Both the position numbers and the translations under genes were made by a program. A stretch of DNA of 45,986 nt from Oceanospirillaceae bacterium (lineage in GTDB: Bacteria > Pseudomonadota > Gammaproteobacteria > Pseudomonadales > Balneatricaceae). Location: the NCBI GenBank assembly GCA_002686055.1, contig NYZU01000035.1, positions 1 through 45,986 of the forward strand, given 5' to 3'. The notes beneath the pieces were generated by a model that saw only the letters and a program-made list of their open reading frames with translations, was not told where the DNA came from and did no database searches. Shown here one piece after another: positions 22,607-42,730 of this stretch (position 1 is its first letter; every line of letters begins with the position of its first letter).

Positions 22607-23656
22607 ATGGCAACAAACAGTCCTAAAGTCACCCAAGCCCCTGTACCTATGCGCTTTGTTGGGCCATTAAAGATCCAAGGCCAAGGTTGGGAAGATAAGG
22701 TGTCTGTGCCATTGGCTACCTATGAAACACCCCTCTGGCATTCTGTCGGTCGAGGTGCCAGGGTGTCGGTATTGTGTGATGGTATCAAAACCACCCTTGT
22801 CGATGAGCGTATGAGCCGGTCCATTTTGTTGGAAGCGCAAACCGCATCAGAGGCTTTATCGGCTTGGCAAGCCCTGCAAAATAGCCAAACGCAAATGCAA
22901 GAGGTGGTCAGTCAACATAGCCGCTTTGCCAAATTGGTTGATATGCATGCTCAAATTGTGGGTAACTTGTTGTATCTGCGCTTAGAGTTCACTACGGGTG
23001 ATGCCTCTGGCCACAATATGGTTACTCAGGCGGCTGACAATATAATGAACTGGGTTTTGGCTGCCCATCCACAATTAACCTACTGTTCTATTTCAGCAAA
23101 TTATTGCAGTGATAAAAAAGCCACAGCGGTCAACGGTATTCTAGGACGTGGCAAGTATGTTGTCGCCGAGATTACCATCCCCCGTGCGTTATGTGAAAGG
23201 CGTTTGCTGACCACGCCCGAAAAGGTGGTAGACCTAAATATTAAAAAGAACCTGATTGGAACCCTAATGGCGGGTGGTGTGCGCAGCGCCAATGCTCATT
23301 ATGCCAATATGCTATTGGGTTTTTATTTGGCTACTGGCCAAGATGCTGCCAATATTATTGAAGGTTCTCAGGGTGTTACCCATGCTGAAGTCAAAAATGG
23401 TGATTTGTACTTCTCTTGTACACTCCCCAATTTAATCATGGGCACTGTTGGCAATGGTAAAGGCTTGGATTTTGTCAGTGAAAATCTAGCAAGCTTAGGT
23501 TGTGCAGAGGAGCGGGCAGCAGGTGAAAACGCGCGCCGTTTAGCCCAGATTTGTGCTGCTACAGTGTTATGTGGTGAATTATCCTTATTGGCTGCGCAAA
23601 CGAACCCCGGGGAGTTGATGGAAGCTCACCTAAAGCTAGAGCGTAAAGCACCATGA
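22607..23656 (+). CDS. Hydroxymethylglutaryl-CoA reductase
   Basis: Reduces HMG-CoA to mevalonate. Catalytic residues can be placed: Glu40 (YETPLW, at the TEGCL position of the family), Lys170 or Lys171 in SDKKATAVN, Asp132 in GDASGHNM, and His341 in LMEAHLKLE near the C terminus. At 349 residues it is a short, soluble, catalytic-domain-only form without membrane spans. It is first in the operon; its stop overlaps the start of the isomerase gene (ATGA). Whether it uses NADPH or NADH is not evident. Confidence 0.9.
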   Translation: MATNSPKVTQAPVPMRFVGPLKIQGQGWEDKVSVPLATYETPLWHSVGRGARVSVLCDGIKTTLVDERMSRSILLEAQTASEALSAWQALQNSQTQMQEVVSQHSRFAKLVDMHAQIVGNLLYLRLEFTTGDASGHNMVTQAADNIMNWVLAAHPQLTYCSISANYCSDKKATAVNGILGRGKYVVAEITIPRALCERRLLTTPEKVVDLNIKKNLIGTLMAGGVRSANAHYANMLLGFYLATGQDAANIIEGSQGVTHAEVKNGDLYFSCTLPNLIMGTVGNGKGLDFVSENLASLGCAEERAAGENARRLAQICAATVLCGELSLLAAQTNPGELMEAHLKLERKAP

Positions 23657-24693
23657 GCAATTCCATTTCTAAGCGCAAACGTGAGCATATTGAAGTCATC
23701 AACCGTGATCCAATGGTTGATCGACAAGGCCACTTTTTTGATGCCATTCAACTGCAGCACCGCGCCCTACCAGAAATCAATCTACAAGATGTAGACCCAA
23801 GTATTAGCGTAATGGGCAAAACCTTAAGTTTCCCATTATTAATATCCTCTATGACCGGTGGTGACGATCAATTAGTTAAGAAAGTGAATCGTCATCTTGC
23901 TGAAGCCGCACAGATTACCGGTGTTGCTATGGGTCTAGGTTCGCAGCGCGTCATGTTACAGCAACCAGAGGCAGAGCTTAGCTTTCAGGTGCGTGATGTA
24001 GCGCCAGATATTTTATTGTTCGGAAACCTAGGTGCCATACAGCTCAATAATGGTGTGACCTCAGAGCAAGTAAAAGAGATATTGTCTAAGGTGCAGGCTG
24101 ATGCTTTATTCCTGCATTTAAACCCTTTACAGGAGGCCATCCAACCTGAGGGCGATACCAACTTTGCTGGCTTAGCTGCGCGTATTGGCGAGTTACAAAC
24201 AGCCCTTGATTATCCAGTTGTCCTTAAAGAGGTGGGTGCTGGTCTTAGTGTACAGGATATTGAACTGGGCCTAAGCCAAGGTATTAAATGGTTTGATGTC
24301 GCTGGTCGGGGCGGTACATCTTGGGCTCGTATCGAACAACATCGTCGTAAAGATGATAGTCAGCTTGGCTTTACCTTACAGGATTGGGGTATCCCCACCA
24401 CTGTCTCTTTGCAACAAGCTAGGCCCTATATGCAAGATGCTAACTTTATTGCAAGTGGCGGCCTACGGGATGGGCTAGATCTAATAAAGAGTGTTATAAT
24501 GGGCGGCTATTTAGGCGGTGTTGCCAAACCATTGTTAGCACCCGCTATGGAATCGACTGCAGCAGTCGTTACTGCCATTGAGTCCTTGAAAAAAGAATTT
24601 GTGACCGCCATGTTCTTGTTATCTGCAAAAAATATAGCAGACTTGCGACTTAACGATACTTTGTTGTTGCCGCAGCAGGGTATTAATAAATAG
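23653..24693 (+). CDS. fni: Isopentenyl-diphosphate delta-isomerase type 2 (FMN-dependent)
   Basis: Interconverts IPP and DMAPP using reduced FMN. The 346-residue TIM-barrel protein shows SKRKREHIEV at the N terminus, PLLISSMTGG, the GLGSQRVML segment, LHLNPLQEAIQPEGD and the FMN-phosphate motif VAGRGGTSWARIE. It overlaps HMG-CoA reductase by four bases, so the two are translationally coupled. Type 2 isomerase is commonly found with bacterial mevalonate genes. Confidence 0.95.
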   Translation: MSNSISKRKREHIEVINRDPMVDRQGHFFDAIQLQHRALPEINLQDVDPSISVMGKTLSFPLLISSMTGGDDQLVKKVNRHLAEAAQITGVAMGLGSQRVMLQQPEAELSFQVRDVAPDILLFGNLGAIQLNNGVTSEQVKEILSKVQADALFLHLNPLQEAIQPEGDTNFAGLAARIGELQTALDYPVVLKEVGAGLSVQDIELGLSQGIKWFDVAGRGGTSWARIEQHRRKDDSQLGFTLQDWGIPTTVSLQQARPYMQDANFIASGGLRDGLDLIKSVIMGGYLGGVAKPLLAPAMESTAAVVTAIESLKKEFVTAMFLLSAKNIADLRLNDTLLLPQQGINK

Positions 24694-24761
24694 TGTGGCA
24701 GACAGTCAAGCCACTGTCGTATACGGAAATAACGCGGAAGCGGAAATAATTGAGATCTTTT

Positions 24762-25940
24762 ATGTCTGTCGGTATTGATGACATCAGTTTTTACACATCG
24801 AACTTTTGCTTGGATCTGCAAGAATTAGCAGCTAATAACGGTGCTAGTGCAGCTAAGTATACAGTTGGTATTGGTCAGGATCGTATGAGTATTCCTGGTG
24901 CAGATGAAGATGTGGTTACGATGGCGGCCAACGCTTGCCTACCTTTATTAGAAGGTATGGCAGAGCGGGGCGAGCAAATTGATACTATCACCAGCGTGTT
25001 GTTCGCTACAGAGACAGGTATCGACCAATCTAAAGCTGCAGGTGTTTATCTGCACAAGCTCTTGGGTTTATCATCCCATTGTCGTGTCGTGGAGCTCAAA
25101 CATGCCTGTTATAGTGCGACGGCTGCTTTGCAAATGGCAGCTGCTATGGTGGCGCGTAAACCAGCAGAAAAAATCTTGGTTATAGCCGCAGATATTGCCC
25201 GTTATGAACGCCAATCTCCTGGTGAGGCGACCCAAGGCTGCGGTGCTGCAGCTATGTTAGTCACTACCCAGCCACGGATAATTGAATTAGACCCTGAAAC
25301 GGGTGTGCATACTGAAGATGTGATGGACTTTTGGCGGCCTAATTATCGTTCTACAGCTATTGTTGACGGTAAGTACTCCACCAAGGTTTACCTGCGCAGT
25401 GTGCGCGCTGCCTGGCAAGATTTTCAGCGCCAATCAAGTTTGTTATTTAAGGACTTTGATTACTTCTGTTATCACTTACCCTTTAGTCGCATGGCGCAGA
25501 AAGCCCACACGCATTTGGCCAATGGCCATAAGCATCATATGACCGAAGATGATCTGTCAGAGCAAATTGATGCCAGCTTGATTTACAATCGTATTACCGG
25601 CAATAGTTATACTGCTGCACTTTATATCGGTTTTATCTCCTTACTAGATCATGTAGCCAATATGGTTGGTAAACGGGTTGGCTTCTTTAGTTATGGTTCT
25701 GGCAGTGTTGGAGAATTTTTTACCGGTAAGCTGGTGGCTGGTTATGAAGCCATGCTGCATACCCAACGGCACCAGACCATGTTGGCAGATCGACAACCTA
25801 TTAGCTATGCAGAATATGTGGAAATGTATGATTTTCAGGTGCCAACAGATGGTGGTACGCATGATTTTCCTCAACAAACCAATGGTCGCTTCCGTTTAGC
25901 TGGTATTAGCCAACATAAACGCCAATATGAGGCGCGATGA
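24762..25940 (+). CDS. mvaS: Hydroxymethylglutaryl-CoA synthase
   Basis: Condenses acetyl-CoA with acetoacetyl-CoA. The 392-residue thiolase-fold protein carries the acylated cysteine Cys116 (KHACYSATAAL), Glu84 (ATETGIDQSK) and the His in CYHLPFSRMAQKAH. I start at the ATG 24762 (MSVGIDDISFY), which aligns with the family; a TTG four codons upstream is less likely. It ends with a four-base overlap (ATGA) with the next gene. No thiolase for acetoacetyl-CoA is encoded in this operon. Confidence 0.94.
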   Translation: MSVGIDDISFYTSNFCLDLQELAANNGASAAKYTVGIGQDRMSIPGADEDVVTMAANACLPLLEGMAERGEQIDTITSVLFATETGIDQSKAAGVYLHKLLGLSSHCRVVELKHACYSATAALQMAAAMVARKPAEKILVIAADIARYERQSPGEATQGCGAAAMLVTTQPRIIELDPETGVHTEDVMDFWRPNYRSTAIVDGKYSTKVYLRSVRAAWQDFQRQSSLLFKDFDYFCYHLPFSRMAQKAHTHLANGHKHHMTEDDLSEQIDASLIYNRITGNSYTAALYIGFISLLDHVANMVGKRVGFFSYGSGSVGEFFTGKLVAGYEAMLHTQRHQTMLADRQPISYAEYVEMYDFQVPTDGGTHDFPQQTNGRFRLAGISQHKRQYEAR

Positions 25941-26995
25941 CTAAGCCTGCTGCTGCCCAAAGTCACTATTGGGCTTCAGTACCCGGTAAAGTGATTATTA
26001 CCGGTGAATATGCTGTGGCCTTCGGTCAGTCAGCTATTGGCGTGGCCATTAATCGTTTATCGAAAGCCACCTTAAGCTGTCAGCCAGCTGCCTCCAATAC
26101 TGACCCTATGCTGACTCTGCAGCTACCTCAATTACGTAAGCAGCGGTCTCTCTCTGTCCATCAGGCTCAGCAACTAGCTGACCATGTGGCGCAGCAACAT
26201 AAAGCGTTTTTGGCCGGGCAGATACCTCTGTCTAGTCTATTTTCTGATCCTGAAGATTTACTGCTTGCGGCATTAGGCTATGGTATCTCTACTAATCAGC
26301 TTGCTGTGCAACAGCATCTGGATTTTACCTTACATAGTGAGCTCTTAATGGGTGGCGGTATGGGTTCATCCGCCTCTACCATTGCTGCACTATTGGCAGC
26401 TTTGCTAAACGCCAATGCTTATCCATTTGATAAGCATAGTCTTTATCAACAGGTACAGGTTATCGAGCATTGGCAACATGGTCGTTCAAGTGGTTTGGAC
26501 CCTCGCCTGTGTGTTTATGGCGGTATGCATTTCCTCCAAGGTGGGCAATACCGGCAATTGCATATCTCTATTCCTCCGCAATGGTTTTTGGTGTCTTCTG
26601 GCAACCCCCAAAGCAGTACTGGTGAATGTGTTGAACTGGTGCGACAGCAACAACATTCTGAGTCATTTTGGCAGCAGTTTGGAGAGGTTGTTAAGGCTAT
26701 GGAAGGGGCCTTGTTAGAGGCCGATAGCGACGCTTTGGTGGAGCTAATAAAAACTAACCATCGTTTATTGCAAACATTAACGGTGGTTCCCAAAACAGTG
26801 GCTGATTTTATTGCCCAAGTTGAGCTAGCAGGCGGTGCTGGTAAAGTTTGCGGTGCTGGCAGTATTCGTGGTGAAGCTGGCGGTCTGATATTGGTTGCGG
26901 GCGTTAATATTGAACCCTTAGAAAAGCTTTGTCAGGCAGCAGGTTATCAATATTGGCCCTTGGCAAGTAACCACCAGGGGGTAATGTATGGCTAG
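25937..26995 (+). CDS. GHMP kinase, probable phosphomevalonate kinase
   Basis: A 352-residue GHMP-superfamily kinase. The N terminus has VPGKVIITGEYAVAFGQSAIG, the ATP loop is GGGMGSSASTIAALLAAL, and CGAGSIRGEAGG is the third motif. The operon has two such kinases, and mevalonate must be phosphorylated twice; since the next gene looks more like mevalonate kinase, this one is assigned phosphomevalonate kinase by elimination. The reverse assignment is possible. It overlaps mvaS by four bases and the next kinase by eight. Confidence 0.7.
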   Translation: MTKPAAAQSHYWASVPGKVIITGEYAVAFGQSAIGVAINRLSKATLSCQPAASNTDPMLTLQLPQLRKQRSLSVHQAQQLADHVAQQHKAFLAGQIPLSSLFSDPEDLLLAALGYGISTNQLAVQQHLDFTLHSELLMGGGMGSSASTIAALLAALLNANAYPFDKHSLYQQVQVIEHWQHGRSSGLDPRLCVYGGMHFLQGGQYRQLHISIPPQWFLVSSGNPQSSTGECVELVRQQQHSESFWQQFGEVVKAMEGALLEADSDALVELIKTNHRLLQTLTVVPKTVADFIAQVELAGGAGKVCGAGSIRGEAGGLILVAGVNIEPLEKLCQAAGYQYWPLASNHQGVMYG

Positions 26996-27959
26996 GCAAG
27001 GGATTATTTGCTCTGCTCCCGGCAGTGCCATGCTGTTAGGTGAACATGCTGTGCTGCATGGTTATCCAGCCTTGGTGGCGGCTTTGGATACTAGGCTTAA
27101 GGTAATATTAACGCCACTTGAAAACCAACAATTGTGTATAGAGTCTAGTTTGGGTCAATGGCAGTCTCCCTTAAGTGATTTAGCTGAGCTACCTATTGCT
27201 GGTCATCCCTTACGCTTTGTCTTTGCTGGCATACAACAAGTAGCTGTACAGGCAGATTTACCAACTGGCTTGATGATCACCATTGAGTCTGAAATTGATA
27301 GCACTATGGGGCTGGGTTCTTCGGCTGCCCTGAGTGTGGCTTTAGTGGCCGTATTGCGCCGCTGGCTAAACTTGGATACGGCGCCTGTGGTTATTTTGGC
27401 TGAGGCCGTAGCGCTAATTCGCCAAGTGCAAGGGCGGGGTTCCGGTGCTGATGCTGCGGCTAGTTGCTATGGTGGTTTGGTGCGTTATGATGCAGACTCA
27501 AAACAAGCACAACCTTTGCAATTAGATGCCAATATAGCCATGCCGGCTCTACGCCTAATTTACACCGGTTATAAGACGCCAACGGCCGATGTTATAGCCA
27601 TGGTGACAAAATGGGCGCAGGCTAAACCACAAGCCTACGCAGACATATATAAATCTATGGGTGAGCTGGTTATTAGTGCTGAGGCAGCTATATTACAAGC
27701 CGATTGGCCTACCTTTGCTAAGGTCATAAATGCCTATCAGCAACAAATGGTTGCCTTGGGGGTTTGTGATCAAGGGACACAAAAGGCCATTAATGCTGCT
27801 TGGCAACAAGTAACAGCAGGTAACCAGCTTGCGGCGGTAAAAATATCTGGCTCAGGTCTAGGCGATTGTATACTTGGTCTTGCCGTACCAGAACTAGTAG
27901 ACTGGCCTCATAGACAATTTTCTATGCATATTGGCATGCAGGGTTTAGTATGGCACTAA
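26988..27959 (+). CDS. GHMP kinase, probable mevalonate kinase
   Basis: A 323-residue GHMP kinase with APGSAMLLGEHAVLHGYPALVAA at the N terminus, the ATP loop MGLGSSAALSVALVAVL, GRGSGADAAASCYGG and KISGSGLGDCILG. The LGEHAVLHGYPAL segment is close to the classical mevalonate kinase signature. It would make mevalonate 5-phosphate from mevalonate. It starts within the last codons of the preceding kinase gene, so translation is coupled. The gap to the decarboxylase gene is 34 bases. Confidence 0.72.
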   Translation: MARQGIICSAPGSAMLLGEHAVLHGYPALVAALDTRLKVILTPLENQQLCIESSLGQWQSPLSDLAELPIAGHPLRFVFAGIQQVAVQADLPTGLMITIESEIDSTMGLGSSAALSVALVAVLRRWLNLDTAPVVILAEAVALIRQVQGRGSGADAAASCYGGLVRYDADSKQAQPLQLDANIAMPALRLIYTGYKTPTADVIAMVTKWAQAKPQAYADIYKSMGELVISAEAAILQADWPTFAKVINAYQQQMVALGVCDQGTQKAINAAWQQVTAGNQLAAVKISGSGLGDCILGLAVPELVDWPHRQFSMHIGMQGLVWH

Positions 27960-27993
27960 TCAGCCAGTGGGTGGACAATAAACTAGAGATACT

Positions 27994-29007
27994 ATGACAG
28001 CAATTACCCCAGCACTTTGGGTGCAAGAAGAGCTTTTGGCAGGCCGATCTTTGCAACCTATCCAAGAACAGGCCACAGCCTATGCGCCAGCAAATATTGC
28101 TTTAAGTAAATATTGGGGTAAGCGTGAAAGCCAATTTAATTTACCCCTGACAGGCTCTCTTTCTGTGTCTCTAGCTGATCATGGTACGCATACCCAACTT
28201 AGCCTGATTGATGCTGCTGATCACCAAGTCTATTTAAATGGTGTTGAGCAAGCTGGAGAATCAGCTTTTGTTGTGCAGTTAAAAGCCTGGTTAAGCTTAT
28301 TCTTACCAACTGGTGTTAGTCTGCGTATTGAAACCCGTAATACCATTCCCACGGCAGCTGGTTTGGCATCGTCGGCCAGTGGTTATGGTGCTTTGGCACT
28401 GGCCTGTAATGAGCTTTGTGGCTGGCAGTTAGACTATACGTCACTCTCAGCTTTAGCGCGGCTTGGCAGTGGCAGTGCTAGTCGTTCTTTATGGCATGGC
28501 TTTGTAAAGTGGCAGGCTGGAGAGGCAGCAAATGGCCATGATAGTGTGGCCTATGTTTTACCGGAGCGCTGGCCTCAACTAAGGGTAGGTATATTAACCG
28601 TTAGTGATGCCAAAAAGGCGGTTTCCTCCAGAGAAGGCATGGGGCGCACAGTACAAACATCGGCATTATTTAAACAATGGCCAGCCCAAGCCGCACGCGA
28701 TATGCAATGTATTGAGCAGGCCATTATGGATAATGACTTTGTGGCTCTTGGGCAAACGGCTGAACATAATGCTATGAGTATGCACGCCACTATGCAGGCC
28801 GCTTGGCCACCATTGGTCTATTGGCAGCCAGAAAGTTTAGCCGTTATGCAGCAAGTATGGGAGCTACGGCAACAAGGTCTAGAAGTTTATTTCACTATGG
28901 ATGCTGGCCCTAATCTAAAGCTGTTATTTGAAGCATCCAATACGGCGACTATACTGCAGCACTTTCCTACACTGGAAGTCATCCAACCCTTTGCTGATCC
29001 AAGCTAG
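27994..29007 (+). CDS. mvaD: Diphosphomevalonate decarboxylase
   Basis: ATP-dependent decarboxylation of mevalonate diphosphate to IPP. The 337-residue protein shows APANIALSKYWGKRE near residue 30, LPLTGSLSVSL, the ATP loop TAAGLASSASGYGALA and the family stretch GSGSASRSLWHGFVKW. This completes the acetoacetyl-CoA to IPP route encoded from 22607 onward. The stop codon is followed after two bases by the polB start. Confidence 0.93.
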   Translation: MTAITPALWVQEELLAGRSLQPIQEQATAYAPANIALSKYWGKRESQFNLPLTGSLSVSLADHGTHTQLSLIDAADHQVYLNGVEQAGESAFVVQLKAWLSLFLPTGVSLRIETRNTIPTAAGLASSASGYGALALACNELCGWQLDYTSLSALARLGSGSASRSLWHGFVKWQAGEAANGHDSVAYVLPERWPQLRVGILTVSDAKKAVSSREGMGRTVQTSALFKQWPAQAARDMQCIEQAIMDNDFVALGQTAEHNAMSMHATMQAAWPPLVYWQPESLAVMQQVWELRQQGLEVYFTMDAGPNLKLLFEASNTATILQHFPTLEVIQPFADPS

Positions 29008-40000: not shown

Positions 40001-40077
40001 CGGGGCGTGGCGCAGCTTGGTAGCGCACCTGCATGGGGTGCAGGGGGTCGCAGGTTCAAATCCTGCCGTCCCGACCA
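40001..40077 (+). tRNA. tRNA-Pro (anticodon GGG)
   Basis: A complete 77-base cloverleaf with encoded CCA. The acceptor stem CGGGGCG pairs with CGTCCCG. The anticodon stem CCTGC/GCAGG holds the 7-base loop ATGGGGT with anticodon GGG. The T arm is GCAGG-TTCAAAT-CCTGC. Its last 19 bases plus 4 bases beyond are repeated at 40208-40230. Confidence 0.97.
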
Positions 40078-40230
40078 ATTAGACCCCTTGGGTTTAATTG
40101 TTTTGGATTAAATTCAGGTTCACAAAACGCGTAGGCGTTTTGCATCAAGCAGCGTCTGCTGCGCAGCCCCAAGGGGAAGTGAAAGCCGAGCAGGCTTTTG
40201 CTTAATCAATCCTGCCGTCCCGACCAATTA
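40059..40230 (+). repeat. 23-bp direct repeat of the tRNA-Pro 3' end (att-like sites)
   Basis: The 23 bases at 40059-40081 (tRNA 3' end plus ATTA) recur exactly at 40208-40230, 149 bases further on. Tyrosine-recombinase elements that insert in tRNA 3' ends leave just such repeats, and a decayed integrase lies directly to the right. I read the copies as attachment sites. Confidence 0.8.
40084..40198 (+). other. Multi-hairpin unit between the two tRNA-Pro 3'-end repeats
   Basis: An outer 9-bp helix (CCCCTTGGG 40084-40092 with CCCAAGGGG 40168-40176) encloses three hairpins: TTTAAT/ATTAAA (40093-40112), CAAAACGC-GTAG-GCGTTTTG (40123-40142) and GCAGC-GTCT-GCTGC (40149-40162). A further stem AAAGCC/GGCTTT follows (40182-40198). 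No ORF fits. It may be a structured RNA made by read-through from the tRNA gene, or a recombination scar. Confidence 0.5.
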
Positions 40231-40309: not shown

Positions 40310-40996
40310 CTATCTTGTTGCCTCTACTTCCAGCTTTCTTTTGTAAACTTTTCTCATTTTTGGGTCTAGGTGACCTGTTGCATCTAATACATCACCATTA
40401 AAGTCGGTGCCGCCTTTCGCTTTTAAGTCATGAAAGTTAAACGGCTCTATACCCGCTTTTTTCATTTTCTTTTTTAAGCGAGTCCAAGCCGATTTAAAGG
40501 CTGATTCGGGTATTCTTTGGCCATAGCGGTTATGTATTATATAAAAACTCTCAATTTCACTAGCTTTATAATTAACAGCCGCCACTAGGCGATCTGACCA
40601 AAACGTAATTGCATCTTTACTACCCTTAACACGTTGCGTGTCGAAACCTTCTTTAAGTATATGTTTTTTGGTAGCGGCTAATATTTCACAGCGTTTCATG
40701 CGGCAAAGATATGCTAATTCCATAGCAGGACGCAAGTAGGGTGTGCCCTCTGCTAATTGATATGCAATATTATATTCTTTATCAGTTACATAATGATCTC
40801 TGGGTTTCTCGTCATTTGGCTTAACTACTTTGGTCGGATTGTCGAGGGTTATATAATCTCGTTCTAAAGCCCAGTTCCATGCGACTGAGATCAAGGCCTT
40901 TTCCCGATTTCCAACCACAGAACCACTGGGCAGGATCTCAATATTCACAGGACCGCCAGTAAGTTCACGAACGTCATTAGCAAACTCATTTAACAA
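40310..40996 (-). pseudogene. Tyrosine integrase remnant fused to a TRAP receptor fragment
   Basis: About 200 residues of a phage-type tyrosine recombinase C-terminal part: NREKALISVAWNWALE, DNPTKVVKP, then the catalytic core. The GHL box (ATGHLD) and the nucleophile region (MRKVYKRK) are present. By my alignment both catalytic arginine positions hold Lys (CRMKRCEI and FHDLKAKG), which may be family variation or decay. The N-terminal domains are missing: the first 29 residues of this open frame (LNEFANDVRELTGGPVNIEI..) belong to a TRAP transporter solute receptor. The junction is near 40909. It points toward the tRNA-Pro att-like repeat, as expected of an island integrase. Confidence 0.75.
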
Positions 40997-41127
40997 ATGT
41001 ACTTTATCAGACTTGGTGCCAAGTACTGACTGTACACGAATGGTAACGTCTTTAGCATGAATAGCGGTGGAACTGATAATCAGTGCCCTGCTACAACAGC
41101 TAACTTTACTTTATTTAATACGGACAT
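40909..41127 (-). pseudogene. 5' fragment of a TRAP-type solute-binding receptor (DctP-like), frameshifted
   Basis: On the minus strand an ATG at 41127, with GGAGG six bases before it, begins a signal peptide (MSVLNKVKLAVVAG) that stops after 15 codons. One frame over, at 41087, the sequence continues as ALIISSTAIHA-KDVTIRVQ and then SDKVHLLNEFANDVRELTGG and ILPSGSVVG, the N-terminal pattern of TRAP transporter periplasmic receptors. A single missing base in the signal peptide explains the break. After SVVG the frame passes into the integrase fragment. The gene is therefore truncated and frameshifted. Confidence 0.65.
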
Positions 41128-41271: not shown

Positions 41272-41907
41272 CTATAAATCCCAGCCTTCTACCCAACCTA
41301 GTAAGGGTAAAATACCTTGCTCAATATCCATAATACCACGCAGCATCATTTCACTAGATACATAGACTAAGACAATCAAACCTACCCAAGAAATCCAACG
41401 GTATTTGACTAATAGCTGCATAATAAATGTGGCTGCTACAGCCATTAGCACAATAGCTAGGCCCAAACCAATGACTAGTTTTTGGGTATCACCATCAGCA
41501 ATTGCCGCCACAGCCAACACATTGTCTAAAGACATAGATACATCAGCAATCAAGATGGACAACAAGGCTGCCTTTAAAGTCGTGGGCGATGCCGCTGTCA
41601 CTTCTGGGTTATCTAAATCGACACCAGCATTGGCATTTTCTCGAATTTCCACATACAAACGCCAGCACACGTAATACAGCAAACAGGCACCAATAAATAA
41701 AATACCCGGGATGCCTAATAAATGGGTCACGATTAAGGCAAACACTACCCGTAAGCCAGCGGCCACCAGCATGCCATATAAAATGGCCTTTTTACGTTGT
41801 TCAGCGGGCAAACCCGCTGCGGCCATGCCAATAATTAAGGCGTTATCACCCGATAAAACTAGGTCTGCGATAACAATTTGGGCATAATCAGCCAGCAATT
41901 CAAACAT
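41272..41907 (-). CDS. TerC-family membrane protein (YjbE-like)
   Basis: A 211-residue protein with about seven membrane segments. The two acidic family motifs are DLVLSGDNALIIGMAA (residues about 15-30) and ADVSMSLDNVLAVAA (around residues 120-135). TerC/YjbE proteins are linked to Mn2+ export and to metal loading of secreted proteins; the exact role here is not shown. AGGA before the ATG supports the start. It lies 20 bases after a broken GMC gene, and no yybP-ykoY riboswitch is possible in that gap. Confidence 0.9.
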   Translation of the reverse strand: MFELLADYAQIVIADLVLSGDNALIIGMAAAGLPAEQRKKAILYGMLVAAGLRVVFALIVTHLLGIPGILFIGACLLYYVCWRLYVEIRENANAGVDLDNPEVTAASPTTLKAALLSILIADVSMSLDNVLAVAAIADGDTQKLVIGLGLAIVLMAVAATFIMQLLVKYRWISWVGLIVLVYVSSEMMLRGIMDIEQGILPLLGWVEGWDL

Positions 41908-41927: not shown

Positions 41928-42219
41928 CTAATTAGTAGCCTTGTGTAAATTATCTTCGGCATCTTGCAATATAATATCTGCCGCTTTCTCACTAATCATT
42001 ATGGCAGGGGCATTGGTATTACCTGAAACAATAATTGGCATAATCGAGGCGTCGGCTACACGCAAGCCTTGTACCCCATAAACCTTTAAGCGTGGGTCGA
42101 CCACGGCTTGATCATCCACACCCATTTTGCAGGTGCCTGTGGGGTGGTAAATAGTAGTTGAATGGTTATGGATCCAATCTAATAGGCCCACATCATCATC
42201 TTCGGCAATACTACTAGAT
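41928..42219 (-). pseudogene. C-terminal stub of a GMC oxidoreductase
   Basis: The last 95 or so residues of a choline-dehydrogenase-like flavoprotein: [10 protein letters not shown] with the active-site His, [16 protein letters not shown] and [19 protein letters not shown]. The FAD-binding N-terminal 400 or more residues are gone: the frame runs back only to a TAA just upstream of 42219 and has no good start (a GTG at 42191 is the first candidate). It is therefore a fragment left by deletion. Confidence 0.8.
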
Positions 42220-42280
42220 GTTTAAATTCTTCAACAATTAAATCTTTTAATGGCACTGAATAAGTTAGGTTTGCTATTGG

Positions 42281-42730
42281 TTACTCAATTTCAGCAATTT
42301 GCAGAACCCTATCCTTGGTGCCCGTAATTTCTACTTGAGCACCTGCTTTAAGGTCGGAAGCAGCTTGCAAGCGCCAAAAGGTGTCGCCAATTTGTTCTTT
42401 GCCTTCACCATTTTGTAAATCTTTGCTAAGGGTTAGGGTGCGACCCACTAGTTGTGCTGCCCGATCATTAAGGTTGGGGCGATCCGTCTTTTCATTAAAA
42501 GAGCGAAACTGCTGCCAATAGCGCCAAGATAAAAACACCGCCACAATGCCAAAGACACTAAATTGCATTTGCCAACTTAAGTCATCATTTATTAAGTTTA
42601 ATACCACAAGGGTAGCAGCAGCACCGGCAGCACCAAGTAAGAAGCCAGAAGCTCCCATGGCCTCACCGCCTAGTAATAGCAATACTAAGATTAACCAGTG
42701 CCAATATGTTAATTCGGTAAAAAATTCCAT
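42281..42730 (-). CDS. NfeD-like membrane protein
   Basis: A 149-residue protein with two or three membrane segments in residues 5-70 and a C-terminal OB-fold domain (LVGRTLTLSKDLQNGEGK ... ITGTKDRVLQIAEI). This is the short NfeD form (YbbK-type partner in E. coli) that is normally encoded with an SPFH protein, as here (21 bases downstream of it). It is thought to help the SPFH protein assemble in membrane microdomains or in membrane quality control. AGGAAAG before the ATG supports the start. Confidence 0.9.
   Translation of the reverse strand: MEFFTELTYWHWLILVLLLLGGEAMGASGFLLGAAGAAATLVVLNLINDDLSWQMQFSVFGIVAVFLSWRYWQQFRSFNEKTDRPNLNDRAAQLVGRTLTLSKDLQNGEGKEQIGDTFWRLQAASDLKAGAQVEITGTKDRVLQIAEIE

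Follow-up and report, generated by a model that had tools for sequence, protein, structure and literature searches.

Among TRAP transporters, systems dedicated to sulfonates are known, including hpsKLM and iseKLM (PMC4334477), and IseJ has been described as a flavin-dependent isethionate dehydrogenase that acts together with Xsc (PMC6453916). Grounded prophages and integrase remnants, on the other hand, are found at tRNA genes (PMC6379469). Here we describe a locus where relics of a transporter gene and of an integrase gene share a single open reading frame. The stretch of DNA analysed (the window, 45,986 nucleotides) is one contig of a 1.44-Mb assembly of an Oceanospirillaceae bacterium that is 72% complete and comprises 46 contigs (this genome is called G000). 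The minus strand of positions 40310-41127 is very probably a deletion-fused relic, made up of the start of a TRAP receptor gene and the end of an integrase gene, and thus an ordinary scar of genome decay without any new gene. What remains at the locus is TerC plus three gene ends.

Features of the locus, with their positions in the window and the evidence for each
Feature	Position	Strand	Basis
tRNA-Pro (GGG), likely integration target, adjoining ihfA and pheST	40001..40077	+	ARAGORN, Rfam
att-like core copy 1, the 3′ end of tRNA-Pro	40059..40081	+	perfect 23-bp repeat
att-like core copy 2, 79 bp from the integrase stop codon	40208..40230	+	perfect 23-bp repeat
Phage-type tyrosine integrase, 3′ part, about 203 codons	about 40920..40310	-	Pfam, PHROG, IMG/VR matches
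Junction interval, short shared TGGNAAY (Gly-Asn)	40908..40920	-	alignments with sister dctP loci and phage integrases
DctP-type TRAP receptor gene, 5′ part, about 70 codons	40908..41127	-	alignment with seven sister loci
TerC/YjbE-family membrane protein gene, open	41272..41907	-	ORF and sister loci
GMC choline-dehydrogenase-like gene, 3′ end, 87-aa frame	41928..42191	-	DNA homology about 41962-42158; 5′ part missing

The reading frame and its joint

An ATG at 41127 opens a receptor-like start with a DctP-like signal peptide that runs into a stop after 15 codons, while the neighbouring minus-strand frame is open for 266 codons. The receptor half of this longer frame contains no ATG; the ORF program proposes a TTG at 40996, giving a 228-aa frame. 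Alignment with seven sister dctP loci shows that a single base present in all seven is missing from the window at 41086-41088, within the signal peptide, precisely the kind of one-base frameshift that the original prediction had read there.

By blastn the window is 74-80% identical in DNA sequence to these seven loci, and the homology ends at 40908 in six cases and at 40907 in one, in line with the joint that had been placed at about 40909. In a protein search of 56 genomes (including the window's own) with a 256-aa query, the joint falls at residues 57-60. Ten receptor rows end at residues 56-61 and fifteen integrase rows begin at residue 47 or later, those beginning at 47, 50, 55 and 56 extending up to about ten residues beyond the joint. 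The two homologies thus meet at the joint, and none of the 25 foreign rows, drawn from 55 other genomes, covers both halves. This agrees with the proposed in-frame chimera of two unrelated genes, and the alignments across the junction that would mark a new chimeric family were absent from these rows. A DNA search of the same 56 genomes gave no match crossing the joint among the foreign rows listed.

The window sequence at the joint is GTTGGAAATCGGGAA, the corresponding position reading GTTGGTAACACTGAC in three sister dctP loci and TCTGGAAATCGTGAA in the phage integrase L124. The TGGNAAY motif, coding for Gly-Asn, is common to the dctP and integrase sides; among five phage integrases compared, Ala replaces Gly in L126, and the first base is a different one in L125 and L128. 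At the joint, some 5-7 bases of homology are plausible, although the true parents are not among the sequences compared. The shared 'xRE' form that had been suggested as the short homology has to be abandoned, since the dctP relatives all read Asn-Thr-Asp at this place (7/7).

The receptor half and its sulfonate-type cluster

The receptor half shows 76% identity over residues 7-76 of a 367-aa DctP orthologue, encoded by the dctP gene of a sister genome (G013), and is therefore homologous to the DctP N-terminus. A complete solute-binding domain with an in-frame signal peptide is not found, as the homology stops at about codon 70 and one base is missing. The named records matching this half are three MAGs assigned to Oceanospirillaceae or Pseudomonadales. 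In G000 a full DctP query matched only the fragment at 41127-40908, and the orthologous fused dctQM permease gene gave no match at E<=1e-100 in this 72% complete genome; at the same threshold it is present in 6 of 15 genus genomes, G000 and G011 not being among the matches. Full-length dctP could be aligned in five of the seven sister loci, the gene being interrupted in L043 (G001) and running off the contig in L049 (G006). TerC lies beside dctP in six of the seven; it was not found between GMC and dctP in L048 (G002).

In G013 the gene order is gltX, xsc, fused dctQM, dctP, TerC/YjbE and GMC oxidoreductase, with a histidinol-dehydrogenase-family gene further on, and the order from gltX to the GMC gene recurs in G010 and G007. 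The G013 xsc gene exceeds the NCBIfam cut-offs for sulfoacetaldehyde acetyltransferase. The window has kept the order GMC 3′ end, TerC, dctP 5′ end, as in the sister cluster, and in G000 xsc and an HpsN-like gene persist on another contig. Judged by its orthologues, the receptor comes from a cluster of sulfonate type (xsc, TRAP, TerC, GMC), of which some sister genomes have a complete copy. The histidinol-dehydrogenase-family gene of G013 may be HpsN-like and one cluster gene might have an IseJ-like role; the cluster is predicted to import isethionate or dihydroxypropanesulfonate.

The integrase half and the tRNA-Pro site

The integrase half matches PHROG 1 (E 8.6e-24) and scores 25.4 bits with Pfam PF00589, just below the cut-off of 27.1. 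Its best three relatives in IMG/VR are L126 (66% identity, E 3e-84), L124 (65%, 4e-88) and L125 (63%, 4e-84), followed by L127 (57%), L128 (49%) and L129 (46%), and all six are full-length integrase frames of 320-396 codons. A relative of residues 208-256, 58% identical, occurs in a Methylophaga MAG. The first 127 residues of L124 have no match in the window, so that the N-terminal arm and core-binding region (about 127 aa) are missing, while homology to the catalytic domain is evident from the retained His box (HDLK), GH and Tyr.

For the catalytic residues we aligned 29 homologue rows, of which two truncated ones were gapped, leaving 27 (L003, L018 and L111 being one gene counted thrice). 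At the Arg I position the window has Lys, where 26 of the 27 rows have Arg and one has Gln. The Arg of L124 at this position pairs with a lambda Int Arg that we take to be the catalytic one, although the match is weak (E 0.025), and the Lys of the window is probably a loss. At the Arg II position Lys is found in the window and in 25 of 27 rows, with Arg in the other two, which looks like a trait of the integrase subfamily and not like damage. The prediction that both catalytic Arg read Lys was accurate as a reading; as a sign of decay it stands for Arg I and falls for Arg II. The subfamily with Lys at Arg II (40310-40920 and L107-L129) includes phages.

The integrase is the sole element gene recognised at the locus. 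With L124 as query, four of 15 genus genomes gave a match at E<=0.001, namely G000 itself, a broken copy in G013, a remnant in G011 and a weak match in G004. A search of sister strains for an intact TRAP operon and an intact island had been suggested as a check: the sulfonate-type TRAP cluster is complete in some, but an intact element was seen in none of the 15 genomes searched with L124.

The order pheT, ihfA, tRNA-Pro is identical in 12 of 12 relative loci. In the window the tRNA-Pro 3′ end occurs as a perfect direct repeat of 23 bp near the integrase gene, copy 1 overlapping the end of the tRNA. No third, distal copy was detected on either strand of the window when up to 4 mismatches were allowed over 21 bases, as would be expected if the distal copy had been deleted. 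A similar core lies 68, 79 and 92 bp after the integrase stop codon in L124, L126 and L127, with three mismatches in the first two and two in L127, where it runs into a tRNA-Pro (GGG) gene; the other three of the six related phage loci (L125, L128, L129) have no tRNA 3′-end core after the integrase. The most similar genome, G011 (84% over 6.9 kb), has both core copies at the same tRNA, the second without one base, together with a shorter integrase 3′ remnant, and this suggests that the element is older than the split of G000 and G011. An integrase remnant is present in one of the 12 relative tRNA-Pro loci, but five of these contigs break off less than 500 bp from the tRNA, and its absence from those carries little weight.

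The tRNA-Pro 3′ flank differs among sister genomes (loci L046, L050-L060), which together with the five short contigs makes it a possible hotspot of integration. A second core copy borders an assembly gap in G006 (L055). In L054 and L056 the gene that begins at the next start codon resembles the 193-aa frame of L057, presumably thymidine-kinase-like, an arrangement that perhaps represents the empty site. The 124 bp between the two cores of the window (40084-40207) fold as single-stranded DNA far better than shuffled sequences (z -5.7). This segment is found in two of 15 genus genomes, G000 and G011 (84%), and is perhaps a remnant of a small att-flanked element. The exact form of the hairpin was in no viral contig searched, and a shorter motif occurred at 12 of 161 loci, all of which, judging from their place names, trace back to the G000 or G011 site. 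An RNA between the cores was also considered, Rfam giving only the tRNA.

A possible course of events and its alternatives

A prophage or related element carrying this integrase would have inserted itself into the tRNA-Pro (GGG) 3′ end, its integrase gene on the side of the tRNA, and the att-like repeats would date from that event. Illegitimate recombination between a few shared bases would then have joined the interior of the integrase gene to that of dctP in a sulfonate-type uptake cluster. Lost in this step would be the 5′ portion of the integrase gene and everything else of the element, together with the fused dctQM and the 3′ portion of dctP; most of the GMC gene would have gone in a second break. 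The deletion originally proposed thus accounts for the loss of both remainders, but one simple deletion is not enough, as the GMC gene beyond TerC is truncated too. On the far side of this relic are nfeD and a stomatin-like gene. In relatives, nine nfeD loci gave no match to TerC, GMC, dctP or the integrase gene, and none to nfeD, stomatin, TerC or dctP was found in the 12 tRNA-Pro loci, with the short contigs mentioned above. Because of the truncation and these unseen adjacencies, the region was shaped by two or more breaks, or by one break plus a rearrangement. The arrangement before the deletion was likewise seen in no sister locus of either set, and as the assembly is fragmented the missing pieces could lie in its unassembled parts, which would speak against a scar.

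Two observations concern the surroundings. The 3′ end of the GMC gene directly adjoins nfeD (41928-42281), a second gene break unseen in the nine relative nfeD loci, and some 7 kb from the tRNA in L057 there is another, different GMC gene, 54% identical over the fragment. Further away, at 22607-29007, lies a mevalonate-pathway cluster, unusual in Gammaproteobacteria, with HMG-CoA reductase-like, type 2 IPP isomerase and HMG-CoA synthase genes, two mevalonate-kinase-like proteins and diphosphomevalonate decarboxylase; the reductase and both kinases score below curated cut-offs.

A variant that deserves some weight, though we consider it the less probable one, is that the sulfonate cluster was cargo of the element and not a chromosomal neighbour, the deletion then being internal to one island. 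The relic of the cluster does sit at the integration site, and gltX and fhs are adjacent without the cluster in G000 and G011 and have it between them in G013. However, the cluster adjoins gltX in G013, G010 and G007, of which G010 and G007 gave no phage integrase match and G013 a single one on a different contig, and the window has no third att copy.

That the contig wrongly joins dctP-terC-GMC to the tRNA-Pro/integrase region is the main doubt left, though an improbable one. The assembly is certainly fragmented and incomplete, and the adjacency was found in no other tRNA-Pro or nfeD locus examined, but each half looks decayed in its own right (the missing base in dctP, Arg I changed to Lys in the integrase), the complementary piece of dctP was not found in G000, and G011 independently carries an integrase remnant at the same tRNA.

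Even less credit can be given to a real gene, in which the 228-aa frame from the TTG would be translated and functional, for instance as a truncated DNA-binding integrase. The frame is open over its 266 codons, and where it differs from phage integrases, third positions are still the most affected (61, 46 and 108 differences at positions 1, 2 and 3 versus L124, compared with 46, 32 and 118 for the phage pair L124-L125 and 57, 33 and 119 for L124-L126). But an open frame is just what is expected soon after two coding halves are joined in phase, no foreign match crosses the joint, the frame is no longer in phase with the original start, and Arg I has been replaced. The ratio of first- plus second-position to third-position differences is also higher for the window versus four phage integrases (0.82-0.99) than for the two phage pairs (0.66, 0.76), a weak argument as the comparisons are few and the window pairs more distant. 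Together with the dctP fragment, which over 49 codons shows 6, 1 and 19 differences from G013 at codon positions 1, 2 and 3, these values give a weak hint that the loss was fairly recent. Most improbable of all is that the frame is expressed as a truncated integrase lacking Arg I, whose binding to the att site of tRNA-Pro would impede further integration at that site; if true, this would be immunity as a by-product of a gene-fusion scar.

Read as a decay scar, this one joint documents the shared decay of a nutrient-uptake cluster and of a prophage relic at a tRNA gene in a lineage of marine Gammaproteobacteria. It is also a caution for annotation: a frame that runs open and in phase through two families can be a scar, and labelling it a fusion protein should be avoided.

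Compared with its closest phage relatives (L124-L127), the integrase shares 57-66% identity and, with L124, L126 and L127, a tRNA 3′-end core after the gene, whereas these relatives have complete frames of 334-349 codons with Arg I intact, the window gene being truncated with Lys. Like the hpsKLM and iseKLM systems (PMC4334477), the window has a DctP-type receptor, whose orthologues adjoin xsc with a histidinol-dehydrogenase-family gene further on; unlike them it retains only about 70 receptor codons, and its substrate is predicted. With the grounded prophages and integrase remnants at tRNA genes (PMC6379469), the locus has in common an integrase fragment, a repeated tRNA 3′ end and decay by deletion. 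It differs from that account in that the deletion also fused the integrase gene in frame to a transporter gene.
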